Source: a virus
Direction: 5' to 3' (one strand)
DNA: 30,097 bases
Virus record (IMG/VR): IMGVR_UViG_3300042549_001727
Span: 1 to 30,097 of that record
Below are positions 12,661-30,097 of the stretch, piece by piece (within the stretch, counting starts at the first letter, position 1; each line of letters opens with the position of its first letter). Below the pieces are notes generated by a model. That model saw only the letters and a program-made list of their open reading frames with translations, made no database searches and was not told where the DNA came from. A program made the translations under genes and the position numbers.

Positions 12661-13149
12661 ATGACCGAACTTACAGCAAAAGAGTTGAGAGATATATTGG
12701 CTTATGACGCCAATACGGGCATTTTTACTTGGACGATTCGTCCGAGTAGAGCAGTTAAAATTGGCGATATAGCTGGGTGCCCAGACGAAAAAGGATACCT
12801 TACGATAGGTATCAAACGCCGCGTTTATAAAGCGCATCGGTTGGCATGGCTGTATATGACCGATAAATGGCCTATCGGACTTATTGATCACATTAACGGA
12901 ATTAAAAGCGACAACAAATTTGATAATTTGCGCGTTGTCGACGAATCCGGCAATTCGCAAAATGTTCGTGAGCCAAATAAACGAAATAAATCTGGCTTTA
13001 TGGGCGTCATATTTTTTCAAAATAAATGGCGCGCCAACATAACGCATCAGGGCAAGACGCATTGGTTGGGCGACTTCAAAACACCCGAAGAAGCCCATCA
13101 AACATATCTTGCTGCCAAACGTAAACTTCACGCTGCTTGCACCTTGTAA
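12661..13149 (+). CDS. HNH homing endonuclease with AP2 domain (copy 1)
   Basis: A 162-aa free-standing endonuclease on the strand opposite to the late operon. The N-terminal part (about 1-45) is shared with the other two copies (LRDILAYDANTGIF). Then comes the HNH core AHRLAWLY at 60-67, LIDHING at 76-82, DNKFDNLR at 86-93, and a C-terminal AP2-like DNA-binding part with SGFMGVIFF, WRANI and HWLGDFKTPEEA. These enzymes cut intron-less or neighbouring sites and spread their own gene. It fills the gap between the gp4-like and gp10-like genes and is probably expressed from its own promoter. Confidence 0.9.
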   Translation: MTELTAKELRDILAYDANTGIFTWTIRPSRAVKIGDIAGCPDEKGYLTIGIKRRVYKAHRLAWLYMTDKWPIGLIDHINGIKSDNKFDNLRVVDESGNSQNVREPNKRNKSGFMGVIFFQNKWRANITHQGKTHWLGDFKTPEEAHQTYLAAKRKLHAACTL

Positions 13150-24937: not shown

Positions 24938-26466
24938 TAGTGTCCCATCCATCCTGAAGAGGCTGTGCCTGCACCATACGTCATGCGGGGTCTGTTGTCC
25001 ATTGGTCTTGCTTCCCTGTGCGCGACCGGATACGCGAACGTCACAGCGATAGCGTCGGCGGCGTCAGGGCTGGCCAGCCCCCGCGCTTTCATGTCCTTCT
25101 TGCTCTCTAGGAATATAGTCCCTTTACTGTCGGGCTTCATCATCGGGCCGGTCAGGTCGCTCTTGAGGAAGCGGTCGTTTGGTATGCTGGCTGTCTTCAG
25201 CCACTCCCGCATGGCGTGCCACATCTCGGCCCGCTTGTTCCCGAACATGACGGGCTTGGTGGATCTCATGCCGAAGTTGACGCCCCGGATCTTATATCGT
25301 TGCTCCTTTAGCCGGTCGACCACGCCCGCGCCTAGCCCGCCCTCGTCGATCACGACCAGCGCCGGTCGGAACTCTTCTATGATGTCGATGACCCTGCCGA
25401 CCACCTCCATGGTGTCGTCGCCCCGGTAGCGGCGTATGCCGATGATGTCACGGCCCTGCCGGATAGCGATGACCGTAGCGTCAGCCCCGAACCGCGCCGG
25501 GTCGACGCCCACGATTATCGGCGCTGTCTGATCTTTCTGCGGCGATCTTTGCTGCGCGTCTTGAACCAATGACGACGGTATGAACTGGTCGTCACTCGCG
25601 TTCGGGAAGGCTCCGTAGACCTCGACGTGGGCTTGAGAAGAGTCGGGTCCGTATTCGTCGATAATCTGCTGATAGACTGCCTTATCAGTTCCCTCCACGC
25701 TTCTGGCGTCAACAACCTTGTTTCGCCAGAACTCGCGCTTGCTGTTGAAGCACTCGTAGAAATATCCGCTATTACGGCGGGGGTTGCTAAAAGCAAGCCA
25801 AAAACGATTAGGAGTGTTCTCTGTAAAGAAGCCACTGGCCACCGCCCAGATAGAGTCATCAATACCGCTGGCTTCGTCGAACACCAACATGACGCCCGCG
25901 AAGTTGTGCACGCCCGCGTAACTGTCAGGGTTCTCGGCCGACCACAGCCGCCCCTCGACGCCCCAGTAGCGCGTGCCCAGCTTCAGATCCCGCTCGACTA
26001 ATTCGGCAATCCACTTGGCCGGTAGCACACGGGTAGCGCTCACCTCAAACCAATGGCTGTTAAGGCACATTGATAGCCATTTAGTTATCTCGGCCCAGGT
26101 GACGCTGCGTAGCTGCGCTTCACTGTTAGCCGACACGATGGTGGTCGAGCCGATCCGGGTCGTCAGCATCCAGATCACGAGCCATGAGACGAGCGCGGAC
26201 TTGCCGATACCGCGCCCGGAGCTGGTCGCCATGCGGAAGGTTTCGAAGTCGAGGCGGCCGTTGTTGTCTGCTATGTGAGCCTTCAGATCCTGTAAGACCT
26301 CAAGCTGCCATTTGCGCGGGCCTGTGAAGTGTTCCAGCGGCGTGCCGGCCTTACCCCACGGGAACGCTAGGCGGACGAACGCTACGGGGTCGTTCTTCAC
26401 CTGCGCCGACCATAGGGTCGCCATCAGCTTCTGTTCGTCTTCGGCGCTATAAATCGGAACCTGCAT
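24937..26466 (-). CDS. terL: Terminase large subunit
   Basis: The 509-aa protein has both terminase activities. ATPase: Walker A SGRGIGKS at 83-90, Walker B VMLVFDEAS with D197/E198, and a SNPRRNSGYF coupling segment near 227-236. Nuclease: acidic residues D322 in VGVDPARFGADATV, D374 in VVIDEGGLG, and D468/D471 in SPDAADA. It drives DNA into the prohead through the portal and cuts it. The ATG at 26466 lies inside the 3' end of the HNH gene upstream (20-bp overlap). Confidence 0.96.
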   Translation of the reverse strand: MQVPIYSAEDEQKLMATLWSAQVKNDPVAFVRLAFPWGKAGTPLEHFTGPRKWQLEVLQDLKAHIADNNGRLDFETFRMATSSGRGIGKSALVSWLVIWMLTTRIGSTTIVSANSEAQLRSVTWAEITKWLSMCLNSHWFEVSATRVLPAKWIAELVERDLKLGTRYWGVEGRLWSAENPDSYAGVHNFAGVMLVFDEASGIDDSIWAVASGFFTENTPNRFWLAFSNPRRNSGYFYECFNSKREFWRNKVVDARSVEGTDKAVYQQIIDEYGPDSSQAHVEVYGAFPNASDDQFIPSSLVQDAQQRSPQKDQTAPIIVGVDPARFGADATVIAIRQGRDIIGIRRYRGDDTMEVVGRVIDIIEEFRPALVVIDEGGLGAGVVDRLKEQRYKIRGVNFGMRSTKPVMFGNKRAEMWHAMREWLKTASIPNDRFLKSDLTGPMMKPDSKGTIFLESKKDMKARGLASPDAADAIAVTFAYPVAHREARPMDNRPRMTYGAGTASSGWMGH

Positions 26467-26929
26467 TGTCTGTCCTATGCGTGTGGTATTTTAGTTCAGC
26501 CGCCTTGCGTGCGGCTAAAGCATCTTCTCTATTCTTGAACTGGCCAAGAAAAATCTGGTGATTATCCAGTGAGATCCTAGCCCGCCAATACCCACGCTTA
26601 AAAGTCACGCCTTTATCTTGCCGCCGGGTATTTTGCATGTTTTCGCTGCGGGTGACCACGCGCAGATTACAAATCCGGTTATCGTTCTTAACCCAGTTAA
26701 TATGGTCTATCTCGCCGTCAGGCCATTCACCATGAACATAGAACCACGCCAGCCGGTGCGCTTTATACTGTCGGCGGAATATCATTATATTCCAGTAGCC
26801 TTTTTTATCGCGTGCGCCAGCTATCTTGCCGGCGTGGCTGCATCCACGGCGTTCGCGCCAGCGAAACCAGCCGGTTTCAGCGTTATAGTCCAGTAGACTT
26901 TTCAGGGTGTCTTGAGTAAAAGTCGTCAT
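26447..26929 (-). CDS. HNH homing endonuclease with AP2 domain (copy 2)
   Basis: A 160-aa protein with the same layout as the other two copies: LKSLLDYNAETGWFRWRER at the N-terminus, AHRLAWFY as first His motif, EIDHINWVKNDNRICNLR as core, and an AP2-like C-terminal part with YWRARI and IFLGQFKNREDALAA. It separates terS from terL and overlaps both: 47 bp with the terS 3' end and 20 bp with the terL start. I start at ATG 26929; ATG 26944 adds five residues. It likely nicks or cuts terminase-region DNA of related phages to spread itself. Confidence 0.9.
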   Translation of the reverse strand: MTTFTQDTLKSLLDYNAETGWFRWRERRGCSHAGKIAGARDKKGYWNIMIFRRQYKAHRLAWFYVHGEWPDGEIDHINWVKNDNRICNLRVVTRSENMQNTRRQDKGVTFKRGYWRARISLDNHQIFLGQFKNREDALAARKAAELKYHTHRTDNAGSDL

Positions 26930-27389
26930 AGCCGCCGTCCTCATTACGGTTGGTCAGAAGGCCGTCTGATGTCTCACCATCGGCGGCCTTTGTATTATCT
27001 AGCACATACCCCTCGACAACGCGAGCCTGCGCTTCCTCAAGCGCCGCAATAATGCTGATCTTTTGTTCGACTTGGATTTGAACAGATTGAGGCGCTGTCC
27101 AATGATGAACATGTTTTAGAATGTCCAGCGCCGCCTTAGTGTCGCCTTCGCGGGCGGCCTTGTGCAGCACTTCGGACATTTCCGCCTCGCCCTCGGCGCG
27201 GCCCTTCTGCTCAGCATACTCCGCAATCGGGTCGAACTGCACCAGCCGCCGATATTCCGTTGGCGTCATGCCAGCGGCGTAGGCGAGCGTGTCGCCCTTC
27301 AGCCCTTTGCGGGCGGCTAAGTAGATGCGCTCTAGGACGGCTTCCGTCGCCTCTATTTTGCGCGGCTCATAAGGTAGGCTTTCAAACAT
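26883..27389 (-). CDS. terS: Terminase small subunit (probable)
   Basis: A 168-aa protein with an N-terminal helix-turn-helix-like part (about 13-50: EAVLERIYLAARKGLKGD, then AAGMTPTEYRRLV), a central helical oligomerisation part (about 55-105), and an acidic, flexible C-terminus. That order fits TerS proteins, which recognise the packaging start site and pass DNA to TerL. Position one gene before terL supports it, though no sequence signature proves it. Its ATG overlaps the stop of the upstream HNH gene (TAATG), and its last 15 or so codons overlap the next HNH gene. Confidence 0.8.
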   Translation of the reverse strand: MFESLPYEPRKIEATEAVLERIYLAARKGLKGDTLAYAAGMTPTEYRRLVQFDPIAEYAEQKGRAEGEAEMSEVLHKAAREGDTKAALDILKHVHHWTAPQSVQIQVEQKISIIAALEEAQARVVEGYVLDNTKAADGETSDGLLTNRNEDGGYDDFYSRHPEKSTGL

Positions 27390-27865
27390 TACTTAAGCCC
27401 CAACACCCGTTTAGCGCCTTCATGCGCGGCAGCGGCTTCCTCTTTAGTAGCATACGCCCCTAAATAGACTTGTCTATATTCAATGCTTATCCGCGCCTCC
27501 CAAGGAAGCTTAGGGCGTCTAGACGGATTTACGCCGAGGATTCCAGATGAATTGCGGGCGCTAGGCGAACTATTATGCAAATTAGTAGACCTTGTGACTG
27601 CTCGCAAATTGACTATGCGATTGTCGGCGCGATTGCGGTTTATGTGGTCTATGTCGTTTTCAGGCCAAACACCATAGTAGTATAGCCATGCCAGCCTGTG
27701 CGCTGGGTAGGTCTTACCTAACAACCCTATCTGCCAATAGCCTTGTGGGCTAAGACACCCCGGCTCGTCACCGATGTTTTTACGCCCCCATTTTGTTTTG
27801 CGACGAAAGACGCCGGCTTCAGGGTCGTAGTCGAGTAAGGTTTTAAGAGTGTCATGGTCGATCAT
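27389..27865 (-). CDS. HNH homing endonuclease with AP2 domain (copy 3)
   Basis: A 158-aa member of the same family: LKTLLDYDPEAGVFRR, AHRLAWLYYYG, DIDHINRNRADNRIVNLR, then the AP2-like SSGILGVNP, WEARI and VYLGAYATKEEAAAA. It is the first gene of the leftward operon, ahead of terS. No ribosome site is visible before ATG 27865; a possible promoter places the transcript start at or next to the ATG. Its stop overlaps the terS start exactly (TAATG), so terS translation may depend on it. Likely a homing enzyme that has become part of the operon. Confidence 0.9.
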   Translation of the reverse strand: MIDHDTLKTLLDYDPEAGVFRRKTKWGRKNIGDEPGCLSPQGYWQIGLLGKTYPAHRLAWLYYYGVWPENDIDHINRNRADNRIVNLRAVTRSTNLHNSSPSARNSSGILGVNPSRRPKLPWEARISIEYRQVYLGAYATKEEAAAAHEGAKRVLGLK

Positions 27866-27872
27866 GGTTTTT

Positions 27873-27901
27873 ATTTTACGGTTTTATTTTTTATCTAGCA
27901 A
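27873..27901 (-). promoter_or_regulatory. Candidate leftward promoter for the late operon
   Basis: On the minus strand TTGCTA (27896-27901), 17 bp, then TAAAAT (27873-27878). The start would fall at about 27866, immediately before the HNH ATG. The surrounding AT-richness makes chance matches likely. Confidence 0.3.
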
Positions 27902-28046
27902 CAAAAAAATTTTTAAAAAGTTCGTGCAGACCCTTCGTATTTCTTAAAGGAGATCCCTCGGCCCAGCCTCCCCCGCCTTTCGACCTGGATCGACCCCAAT
28001 CAGCTCAATGAATGTAGACTTAAAGCATTACGTTAAGTTGACAATC

Positions 28047-28064
28047 AAACGTCGGATCGTCATG
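28047..28064 (+). repeat. Control-region repeat R1
   Basis: AAACGTCGGATCGTCATG, identical to R2. A TTGACA at 28038-28043 lies just before it, but no good -10 follows. Confidence 0.75.
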
Positions 28065-28093
28065 CACTTGAAGGGTTGCGTCACGCGTTAGCA

Positions 28094-28117
28094 AAACGTC
28101 GGATCGTCATGACGATC
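28094..28117 (+). repeat. Control-region repeat R2 with 16-bp palindrome
   Basis: The same 18-bp sequence as R1 at 28094-28111. Extended by ACGATC it forms a perfect palindrome, GATCGTCATGACGATC, at 28102-28117, as expected of a dimeric protein's binding site. Confidence 0.75.
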
Positions 28118-28160
28118 TAGGTCCATGCAGAGTGTTTGCGCCTGGACGGCGCGGGACAAA

Positions 28161-28192
28161 AAACGTCGGATCGTCGGATTGCCATGACGTTT
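28161..28192 (+). repeat. Control-region repeat R3 with inverted end
   Basis: AAACGTCGGATCGTC (28161-28175) matches the first 15 bases of R1 and R2. It is followed by CATGACGTTT at 28183-28192, the reverse of the repeat start, giving an imperfect inverted pair. Confidence 0.7.
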
Positions 28193-28232
28193 CAGGTCGC
28201 TGAAAACTTTTGCTGGTTGCTATACTATTATG

Positions 28233-28261
28233 TTTACATTTATTCTAAAACTCCCTATAAC
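28233..28261 (+). promoter_or_regulatory. Putative rightward early promoter
   Basis: TTTACA (28233-28238), 17 bp, TATAAC (28256-28261): one mismatch to consensus in each box with ideal spacing. The expected start at about 28268 coincides with the inverted repeat copy R4, so that site may be an operator. It drives the genes from 28448 with a leader of about 180 nt. Confidence 0.55.
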
Positions 28262-28267
28262 AACTCT

Positions 28268-28285
28268 CATGACGATATGACGTTT
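28268..28285 (-). repeat. Control-region repeat R4 (inverted copy)
   Basis: Read on the minus strand it is AAACGTCATATCGTCATG, 16 of 18 bases identical to R1 and R2. It overlaps the predicted start of the rightward promoter. A shorter core copy (CGGATCGTC) lies on the minus strand at 28332-28340. Confidence 0.65.
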
Positions 28286-28345
28286 TCAAGCAGCGCCTCG
28301 CATTCAACGCCATGTTGTCCGACGATTCGACGACGATCCGCGACT

Positions 28346-28354
28346 ATATCCACA
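28346..28354 (+). promoter_or_regulatory. DnaA-box-like site
   Basis: ATATCCACA, one mismatch from the TTATCCACA DnaA box. Similar sites occur at 28425-28433 (same sequence) and 28842-28850 (GTATCCACA). Three in 505 bp is suggestive, but the latter two are within ribosome-site leaders. Confidence 0.3.
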
Positions 28355-28447
28355 ATTAATCGCCCAAAATGGGGCAAAACATAACAAAACTCTTTACGGC
28401 TCTCAAAAAACGTGAGAGGATAACATATCCACAAAGGAGCCAAGACC

Positions 28448-28801
28448 ATGACTGACTTAGACCTGACAAACGACCTGATCGACGTTCGCGACATCATCGC
28501 GCGCATCGAGGACATCGAAAACGACGACGACAAGCGCGGTGAGACGACTATGCTCATGGCGATAATGAGCGACTTAGACGGTGCTGGCGGTGATGAGCAG
28601 TGGCGCGGCGACTGGTATCCGATCACGCTCATCCGTGACAGCCACTTCACCGATTATGCGCGCGAGCTGCTAGAAGATATCGGCGACTTACCGCGCGAGC
28701 TGCCGCATTATATCGAGATCGATTGGGATGCTACCGCGCGCAATATCCGCGTCGATTACACGCCGGTGACAATTAACGGCTTTACATACTGGACAAGGTA
28801 A
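28448..28801 (+). CDS. First early gene, conserved-type phage protein of unknown function
   Basis: A 117-aa acidic protein. The C-terminal half, GDWYPITLIRDSHFTDYARE ... HYIEIDWDATARNIRVDYTPV, resembles small proteins carried by many phages and plasmids, some of which are labelled antirestriction-like. I cannot confirm that role. Its high Asp/Glu content would suit a DNA mimic. A strong AAAGGAG site lies 9 nt before the ATG, and a terminator-like hairpin follows the stop, so it may be expressed strongly by itself at the start of infection. Confidence 0.8.
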   Translation: MTDLDLTNDLIDVRDIIARIEDIENDDDKRGETTMLMAIMSDLDGAGGDEQWRGDWYPITLIRDSHFTDYARELLEDIGDLPRELPHYIEIDWDATARNIRVDYTPVTINGFTYWTR

Positions 28802-28805
28802 CAAC

Positions 28806-28836
28806 AGGCGACGCTAGCAATGGCGTCGCCTATTTT
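28806..28836 (+). terminator. Rho-independent terminator-like hairpin
   Basis: AGGCGACGC (28806-28814) pairs perfectly with GCGTCGCCT (28823-28831) around an 8-nt loop, followed by ATTTT. The T-run is short, so termination is probably partial. Confidence 0.6.
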
Positions 28837-28864
28837 GTAACGTATCCACACAGGAGCCTAAACA

Positions 28865-29335
28865 ATGACAAGCTTAAAAGAATGGATGGACGCACAATGG
28901 CAAGAGCCGGGCGTTAAGTTCTCCGGCCATGGCGTCGTGTATATCGGAACCTGTCTTGCCGACATGCAGGTGCGCGGCGGGACAGCGCGCAATCCTACAA
29001 TCGACAAAGAGACTAAGAAGCGCCGCGCCGGGCTGGCGATGTATAACGAAAAGCTAAAGCCGATCATTTTGGCCGAAGCAACCAAAACGGACGGCGTGTA
29101 TCGCTGGCCAAAGACCGAAGCGCCGGCCAAAGCCGAACCTGTAGCCGCAATACCGCGCAAGCGCGTTCCCAAGGCTAAGCTAGAACAGGCGGCCGCGATC
29201 ATAGCCAAAGTGCCGCCGGAAGAGCTGGCGACGTTCCTTGCGCGGTTCGGCTTGTCACTGTCGCTCGCCGCGTCCATTGCGTCGCTCGACAACGCCGAGA
29301 TGATCGCACGTCAATTCTTGAGGGCAACGCTGTGA
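28865..29335 (+). CDS. Early protein of unknown function
   Basis: A 156-aa basic protein in two parts: an N-terminal part of about 75 residues (LKEWMDAQWQEPG, GVVYIGTCLADMQV), and, after a Pro/Ala/Lys linker, a helical C-terminal part with PPEELATFLARFGLSLSLAASIAS. No family is recognised. It has CAGGAG 8 nt upstream, within a leader very like that of the previous gene. Its stop overlaps the GTG start of the next small gene. DNA binding is possible from the basic linker, but unproven. Confidence 0.75.
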   Translation: MTSLKEWMDAQWQEPGVKFSGHGVVYIGTCLADMQVRGGTARNPTIDKETKKRRAGLAMYNEKLKPIILAEATKTDGVYRWPKTEAPAKAEPVAAIPRKRVPKAKLEQAAAIIAKVPPEELATFLARFGLSLSLAASIASLDNAEMIARQFLRATL

Positions 29336-29496
29336 TTGAATTAGAGCTGGAAGCCAAAGCGATAGAAGAGTTGATAGAGCTGTTATCCGCCCTACCAACT
29401 CGAACAAATCATCTGGACGACGCGCTGCTAACGCTGCGCGACGTTTACGACAACGCAGCCGAAGAATACTGGACAGAAAAGTGGAGCAACCCGTGA
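29332..29496 (+). CDS. Small acidic helical protein
   Basis: From GTG 29332 a 54-aa frame reads IELELEAKAIEELIELLSAL ... EEYWTEKWSNP. It is strongly acidic and helical, and it fills a gap otherwise without a gene. GAGGG lies 7 nt upstream. Its start overlaps the previous stop and its own TGA overlaps the next GTG (GTGA at 29493-29496), the same coupling seen throughout this cluster. Function unknown. Confidence 0.65.
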   Translation: MIELELEAKAIEELIELLSALPTRTNHLDDALLTLRDVYDNAAEEYWTEKWSNP

Positions 29497-29786
29497 CCTA
29501 CCATATTGACTATGAGCTTGATGAATTCCAGCCGTGGCCGGGGATGGCGATATACGCCTACGGCGTCGCGACCATCTCTTACAAGTGGGAGGGGCGCGAC
29601 CGCGACACGGGCGACGACGCCGGCCCGTACGACATAGAGCTAGAACACCTCACAATAAGCGCCGATAAGGCTAAGGAGCCTGACCGCTGCATAGAGCAGA
29701 CCGATCCACTCTTTAGGCAGGTCGAGTCCATCCTATGCGCCAGCCGCGACGTGTACGCCGCATGTAAGGAAGATTATGAAAACTGA
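29493..29786 (+). CDS. Small early protein of unknown function
   Basis: A 97-aa acidic protein beginning TYHIDYELDEFQPWPGMAIYAYGV. Its beta-rich first half ends near YDIELEHLTI, and a helical tail (FRQVESILCASRDVYAAC) follows. GTG at 29493 is preferred because GGAG lies 8 nt upstream and the codon overlaps the previous stop; GTG 29481 is the longer option. No family recognised. The 3' end overlaps the next small gene by 11 bp. Confidence 0.7.
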   Translation: MTYHIDYELDEFQPWPGMAIYAYGVATISYKWEGRDRDTGDDAGPYDIELEHLTISADKAKEPDRCIEQTDPLFRQVESILCASRDVYAACKEDYEN

Positions 29787-29868
29787 CCTGATCGCCTTCG
29801 CCATCGGCGCAGCGCTGGCAATCCCCGCGCTCGCCTTATTCGTAACATATCTACTGGGGGGCTTGTGA
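29776..29868 (+). CDS. 30-aa single-span membrane peptide
   Basis: ATG 29776 to TGA 29866-29868 encodes one membrane-spanning helix (LIAFAIGAALAIPALALFVTYLL) with a short KTD start. It overlaps the gene before it by 11 bp and shares its last base with the next ATG (TGATG). Tight packing supports it being real. Tiny membrane peptides are common among phage early genes, with diverse or unknown roles. Confidence 0.55.
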   Translation: MKTDLIAFAIGAALAIPALALFVTYLLGGL

Positions 29869-30050
29869 TGTTATACGTTGATGACGTTATGCACATTCTG
29901 GGCATAGACAATGATTGGATCGCGCGCTGCATCCTTGCGCGCATGGACTTAGACTTCTCTGAATGCACGCACGAAGAATTTATAGCCGAATGCAAGCGCG
30001 CGGCGGCCGAGTTCTATGAAGAGTGCGCCAACGCCGAACAAGGAAGCTAG
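29868..30050 (+). CDS. Small early protein of unknown function
   Basis: A 60-aa acidic helical protein (YVDDVMHILGIDNDWIARCI, then DFSECTHEEFIAECKRAAAEF). ATG 29868 has GGGGGG at a suitable distance; a GTG three bases earlier is possible. It overlaps the membrane peptide stop. I do not recognise a family. It is followed after 3 bp by the methyltransferase-like gene. Confidence 0.65.
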   Translation: MLYVDDVMHILGIDNDWIARCILARMDLDFSECTHEEFIAECKRAAAEFYEECANAEQGS

Positions 30051-30053
30051 GCC

Positions 30054-30097
30054 ATGCGAGTTTTAATCGCTTGCGAGTTTAGCGGCGCAGTCCGTGA
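30054..30097 (+). CDS. Start of a methyltransferase-like gene, cut by window
   Basis: Only 14 complete codons are visible: RVLIACEFSGAVR after the Met. This beginning (VLIACExSGxVR) is characteristic of phage DNA methyltransferase-like proteins, where it forms the first strand and loop of the SAM-binding fold. AAGGAAG lies about 9 nt upstream. The rest is outside the window, so activity and target cannot be judged. Confidence 0.6.
   Translation, partial: MRVLIACEFSGAVR

Follow-up and report, generated by a model that had tools for sequence, protein, structure and literature searches.

The closest described counterparts of the locus analysed here are iteron origins of satellites and other elements. 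In Gram-negative PICIs such as EcCICFT073, the origin is an AT-rich region between two iteron sets, used together with a Pri-Rep type initiator that occurs as allelic variants (PMC6092414). SaPI Rep and SCCmec Cch2 read their iterons via a C-terminal domain (PMC7581432), and SaPI Rep/PriRep and Cch2 are initiator helicases in which this domain binds short iterons (PMC7581432; PDB 7pds, 7ola). In the Vibrio cholerae PLE, origin iterons and the DNA-binding domain of the initiator swap jointly between close relatives; the initiator there is of the RepA_N type with an N-terminal binding domain, and the PLE-linked Odn is an origin-directed nuclease (PMC8263062). Satellite P4, whose alpha and ori appear in PMC6092414, combines a primase-helicase with a cognate origin. 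The NrS-1 primase-polymerase is described with an 8-nt recognition sequence, present in two copies in the genome, and not with flanking iteron arrays (PMC7102993). A literature search of titles and abstract beginnings, with partial coverage, returned no account of such origins in P22-like phages.

We analysed a stretch of phage DNA, hereafter the window (30,097 bases), in which the region 28047-28340 is, judged by its sequence, probably the iteron part of a phage replication origin. The locus resembles the PICI origins in its paired iteron sets around an AT-rich region, the proposed type of initiator and the allelic variation of that initiator, and resembles the SaPI and Cch2 systems in having a candidate initiator helicase whose C-terminal domain may read short iterons. 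Iterons and the putative DNA-binding domain of the initiator tend to swap jointly between close relatives, as in the PLE, and P4 is likened to this locus by description, not by sequence. There are also differences: the PICI origin follows pri-rep within an integrated satellite (PMC6092414), whereas the window phage appears to be free-living and P22-like, with its proposed origin beside terS and, in window-type relatives, ~4 kb from the initiator gene. Compared with SaPI Rep and Cch2, the candidate initiator carries a RepB/PrimPol-like primase and a DUF5906 helicase, and the window-type iteron has two CGTC motifs 8 bp apart. In PICI/SaPI-kind origins the iterons directly follow the rep gene; here, in window-type relatives, the distance rightwards from the terS start to the initiator gene is 4.1-4.7 kb (3.3 kb in the relative G013), and we therefore regard the locus as a variant of that kind and not a plain member.

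The window record has portal and terminase large-subunit (TerL) matches. The phage ctNMl277 (MW202483), with a TerL 83% identical to that of the window phage, has annotated P22-type coat and portal genes, and the next relative is DSL-LC05 (OR003940; TerL 65%). On the strength of these matches and annotations, the window phage is assigned by sequence to the P22-like podophages. A phage integrase (PF00589) was found in 0 of 13 related records, some perhaps incomplete, and HTH_3, the domain of CI/Cro-type repressors, in 0 of 20; a non-exhaustive search with two short peptide patterns found four TerL relatives within bacterial genome contigs, all of them MAGs. Together, these observations suggest that phages of the group are lytic. 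The titles of these MAGs refer to Rhodoferax, a beta proteobacterium, Proteobacteria and Gammaproteobacteria, which, for binned phage contigs, is weak evidence of the host.

The repeats sit between leftward late genes and rightward early genes, the latter starting at 28448. On the late side, a gene with HNH family matches (27389-27865, minus strand) adjoins the proposed origin and is followed by the leftward putative terS (26883-27389), named by its position and without a PHROG or Pfam match; two further HNH-like genes were recognised by eye from their translations at 12661-13149 (+) and 26447-26944 (-). The first early protein (28448-28801, +) shows a weak match to the antirestriction family ArdA (PF07275; 24.8 bits against a cut-off of 27). 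Scans of the window for Rfam families (gathering threshold) and tRNAs gave no matches, and GC skew in eight genomes showed no clear switch at the repeat site.

The original prediction had described an 18-bp repeat family in this divergent region, and every element of it was recovered: two exact copies of AAACGTCGGATCGTCATG, R1 at 28047-28064 (+) and R2 at 28094-28111 (+); a 15/18 copy, R3, at 28161-28178 (+), followed up to 28192 by GGATTGCCATGACGTTT; an inverted 16/18 copy, R4, at 28268-28285 (-); and a core fragment, R5, an inverted TCCGACGATTCGACGACGATCCG at 28318-28340 whose minus strand reads CGGATCGTCGTCGAATCGTCGGA. R1 has the two CGTC motifs, and a perfect 16-bp palindrome, GATCGTCATGACGATC (28102-28117), starts within R2 and reaches past its end, so that the whole element spans 28094-28117. 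R1-R3 are oriented one way and R4-R5 the opposite way, and between them lies an AT-rich stretch (28193-28267; 60-bp GC minimum 0.27, centre 28230), the proposed melting region. Two DnaA-box-like TATCCACA sites in the right flank (28347-28433; 28347-28354 and 28426-28433, both +) are only putatively part of the origin; a third copy lies at 28843, all three in the window being on the plus strand, to the right of the proposed origin and in the leaders of early genes.

Sites with at most three mismatches to AAACGTCGGATCGTCATG number only four in the 30,097-base record, all within 28047-28340, compared to a chance expectation of 0.01 on average and 1 at most (100 shuffles). Rarity of the repeat elsewhere in the genome had been set beforehand as a test, and the repeat passed it in 12 related records, each 10-40 kb long, in which the three exact 13-mer sites were confined to the region; with up to two mismatches, G001:4821 was the sole clear outlier. 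As in PICI/SaPI-kind origins, the short repeated sites are thus clustered in a single non-coding region.

Conservation in relatives, likewise proposed as a check, was borne out by a pattern scan that found a 16-mer of the repeat exactly in 34 viral contigs, 30 of them with the same context and four (L014, L027, L030 and L031) with an unrelated one. Two exact copies were present in 24 of the 30 same-context contigs, with a spacing of 47 bp in every one, and the spacing 0/47/114 was kept in 13 of 19 distinct sequences. Mean identity to the window was 0.96, 0.92, 0.94, 0.87 and 0.77 for R1 to R5, and 0.74 for both the AT-rich stretch and the R1-R2 spacer; the R2-R3 spacer, however, reaches 0.93, so the sites are not singled out by conservation alone. 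In a phage collection, 12 records had short matches to 27300-30097.

We next compared the layout across relatives. In the window, 8-mers shared across the AT minimum were inverted in 17 cases and direct in 8 (p 0.005). Upstream of terS, inverted exceeded direct sharing in 47 of 63 clusters of regions, with fewer in 13 and equality in 3 (sign test, 1.2e-5, for clusters that are not fully independent because some iteron types are common to several), and inverted sharing reached p<=0.05 against shuffled flanks in 44 of the 63. The layout rule was fixed and left out another, very AT-rich stretch that lies immediately upstream of the terS/HNH start; a form of the test without HNH handling (84 of 114 inverted, 25 direct, 5 equal) misplaced the AT minimum of the window and was superseded. 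One of the 13 contrary regions is that of ctNMl277 (inverted 1, direct 21), scored as a miss because the rule chose a different AT-rich spot; by eye, it reads TTGGTAGTG, an AT-rich stretch, then CACTACCAA. The result for OR003940 says little about layout, as the region was anchored on TerL since a terS match was not found. Two iteron sets flanking an AT-rich region, the PICI/SaPI arrangement, are thus present both in the window and in the 47 regions.

The position of the repeats is kept in relatives, and the motif upstream of terS varies from phage to phage, with forms including GTTTATGTAAAC, TTGTGGACAAT, TTGTGGGCAAT, TTTGGGTCAT and TTTATGCAG. Among loci sampled from the best 80 of more than 594 TerL relatives together with relatives from other searches, 76 of 116 had at least four near-copies of one 12-mer upstream of terS, against at most three in shuffled controls (12 shuffles per locus); some of these clusters are simple tandem repeats, so not every one is an iteron set. 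L123, whose TerL is 95% identical, retains the left flank of the block but has other repeats in place of these. Some loci have additional repeats: in ctNMl277 (L119:28211-28590), GTTTATGTAAAC occurs in seven near-copies in addition to the TTGGTAGTG sites, and L124 and L315 have a GATCGG tandem array in the left iteron arm and few TTTATGCAG sites. At the equivalent place, OR003940 (L120:33444-33980) has palindromic ACCCAGTGGGT repeats, without a DUF5906 match, which could be either operators or a different type of origin.

Relatives encode a protein of ~770 aa with a RepB-type primase and a DUF5906 helicase, which we propose as the initiator. The G003 protein matches both RepB_primase (PF16793) and DUF5906 (PF19263), the ctNMl277 protein matches DUF5906, and DUF5906 is present in 12 of 13 larger related records searched. 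The gene has no copy on the 30,097-base window record, and an initiator encoded by the element itself is therefore seen in the relatives only. A profile search of PDB sequences returned the NrS-1 'Primase' (6k9c, 6k9e; E 2.6e-11), and the top structural match of an initiator model (mean pLDDT 80.6, pTM 0.46) is the NrS-1 CTR (E 5.9e-19), making the NrS-1 primase-polymerase (PDB 6k9c, 6k9e, 6lrb) the best PDB relative of the helicase half in sequence and structure. AsfvPrimPol, poxvirus E5/D5, PriRep1 with dsDNA and the SaPI5 primase-helicase follow further down, with modest TM-scores. Residues 691-748 of the model form a strand-helix-helix-strand-strand unit, a predicted fold at the C-terminus that is similar to a winged helix. 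No Odn-like protein was seen among short ORFs (<330 codons) using a profile of the initiator C-terminus: of its 202 hits, all 12 in such ORFs begin at a locus edge and are initiator fragments, and the remaining 190 lie in longer ORFs.

To relate iterons to proteins, we used 46 phages forming 51 pairs with TerL at least 95% identical, of which 18 share iterons and 19 differ, 14 intermediate pairs being left out. Median identity of the initiator C-terminus (aa 685-777) was 0.96 in the 18 pairs sharing iterons compared to 0.60 in the 19 with different ones, while the first 300 aa gave 0.93 against 0.85 (14 and 18 pairs) and the DNA polymerase control 0.92 against 0.95, with few pairs (4 and 6). 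Permutation within clades yielded p 0.0028 (TerL >=0.95) and 0.0002 (>=0.90) for the C-terminus, and the N-terminus covaried weakly too (p 0.0058 and 0.0036). Along the protein, covariation begins near residue 316 and continues up to the C-terminus, so that it includes the helicase domain as well as the putative winged helix. Exceptions exist on both sides, since the different-iteron pair L151-L148 has a C-terminus 0.98 identical and the two iteron-sharing pairs of L024 have 0.53 and 0.55.

The window of the protein starting at residue 691 predicted iteron sharing, by computed similarity, with AUC 0.94, 0.88 and 0.89 in three settings, compared to 0.79, 0.80 and 0.78 for TerL; it was the best in settings one and three, and in setting two it was equalled or beaten by two other windows (0.888, 0.882) and the whole protein (0.903). 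The nearest neighbour had the same iteron type in 22 of 28 cases for the C-terminal window, 21 of 28 for the whole initiator and 13 of 28 for TerL, with type labels assigned by eye and partly merged, a count that the computed-similarity test repeats. A first Mantel test on k-mer cosine in 38 phages gave a weak correlation (whole initiator r 0.29, partial 0.19) because most pairs have no repeated words in common, and thresholded, TerL-matched comparisons were then used. In an open scan of protein families, 7 of 102 were testable, and the same-minus-different identity was 0.44 for a 98-aa early protein, 0.19 and 0.14 for two small proteins and 0.12 for the initiator, followed by the putative TerS (0.03), the polymerase (0.02) and TerL (0.01).

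The relationship was also tested in reverse, by fishing regions with the initiator C-terminus (61 distinct regions). With a C-terminus at least 90% window-like, 6 of 6 regions, on contigs that the iteron search had already returned, had 5-6 window-type sites. At 73-84%, on contigs new to our lists, the top three 8-mers included ATAGTCAT, which differs from ATCGTCAT in one base, in 8 of 9 regions, and the ninth (L253) had an ATATCGTCA form; at 68-69%, TATCGTCA was found in 2 of 2. Six regions have a G013-like C-terminus (98-100%): three contain 4-6 TTTATGCAG-type sites, two contain 2 such sites plus a GATCGG tandem, and the remaining one, L310, which is the L024 contig, has window-type iterons. 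L024 is in conflict with the rule, as its C-terminus is identical over 176 aa to that of G013, a phage with another iteron type; recombination or chimeric assembly may account for this pairing, and the contig bears only the C-terminus of the initiator.

The original prediction had left the choice between operators and iterons open, along with that between a regulator and a replication initiator. Binding sites for a transcription regulator of divergent early and late promoters, switching specificity as in immunity regions, would suit the position between leftward and rightward genes, and inverted arrays around divergent promoters would resemble the layout we observed; moreover, where 0.9 promoter-like matches would be expected in 27860-28460, there are three, each on the minus strand, including those at 28242-28270 and 28378-28406. 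We nevertheless consider this unlikely, given that HTH_3 and integrase are missing from the 20 and 13 related records searched, that the sites are not scattered over other promoters, and that iterons track the primase-helicase even in clades that yielded no 98-aa protein. The operator half of the claim, which gained no positive support, is thus less likely than the iteron half, which the inverted arrays and the covariation with the primase-helicase favour; a regulator of another kind is conceivable. The helicase/C-terminal half of a primase-helicase encoded by the phages covaries with iteron sequence, which provides a candidate for the initiator.

It is more doubtful still that another early protein reads the iterons and recruits the primase-helicase. 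Both proteins that could do so track iteron type in the window clade, the 98-aa protein more strongly than the initiator (0.90 against 0.46; 10 and 7 pairs) and the DnaA-domain-IV protein as well (0.85 against 0.59; 12 and 7 pairs, TerL >=0.90). DnaA domain IV is a DNA-binding domain, and in L024 the 98-aa protein agrees with the iteron type although the initiator C-terminus disagrees. However, the 98-aa protein is acidic, was found at only 29 loci, nearly all of the window clade, and its model has no PDB match at E<=0.001, while DnaA_C occurs in 7 of 13 records and is missing from G018, G020, G021 and G022, all of which have iteron clusters; the DnaA-domain-IV protein was found in 17 of 46 phages. 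Stand-alone DnaA domain IV proteins (PF08299, E 7e-16) are encoded in relatives, for example at L205:6290-6535 (-), and the window itself encodes an acidic early protein of ~100 aa (29481-29786, +) that has a confident model without a PDB match and tracks iterons in the window clade. Least probable of all is a packaging (pac) site that the small terminase would recognise: the sites do adjoin the putative terS gene, but its product hardly tracks the iterons (0.91 against 0.88; 16 and 23 pairs).

Taking the iteron origin as the preferred reading, the observed sites, their confinement, the layout and initiator gene in relatives, and the covariation lead us to infer how the origin might work. The window phage itself would encode a matching initiator of ~770 aa, comprising a RepB/PrimPol-like primase, an SF3-type (DUF5906) helicase and a putative C-terminal winged helix. 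Several copies would bind, some to R1-R3 on one side and some to the opposed R4-R5, and would melt the AT-rich stretch that separates the arrays, upon which two facing rings could self-load as helicase and primase for both forks. The choice of iteron would lie with the C-terminal domain, perhaps together with that of the helicase.

We tentatively suggest, as a possibility well short of probable, that free-living tailed phages run an arms race over origin identity, exchanging matched iterons and the helicase/winged-helix half of the initiator on near-identical virion genes and so giving rise to many origin specificities. If this were true, such exchange could offer escape from origin-directed nucleases, from initiator-hijacking satellites or from interference with replication by co-infecting relatives, and the HNH gene beside the proposed origin of the window could help to drive it. 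In this phage group, origins can be called from sequence, and the apparently lytic phages offer a natural series of origin/initiator pairs, from one-base iteron changes up to complete replacement in similar genomes, which prompts one to ask whether a phage can shut out another at the replication step, and through which the DNA-reading code of SF3-type primase-helicases becomes testable.
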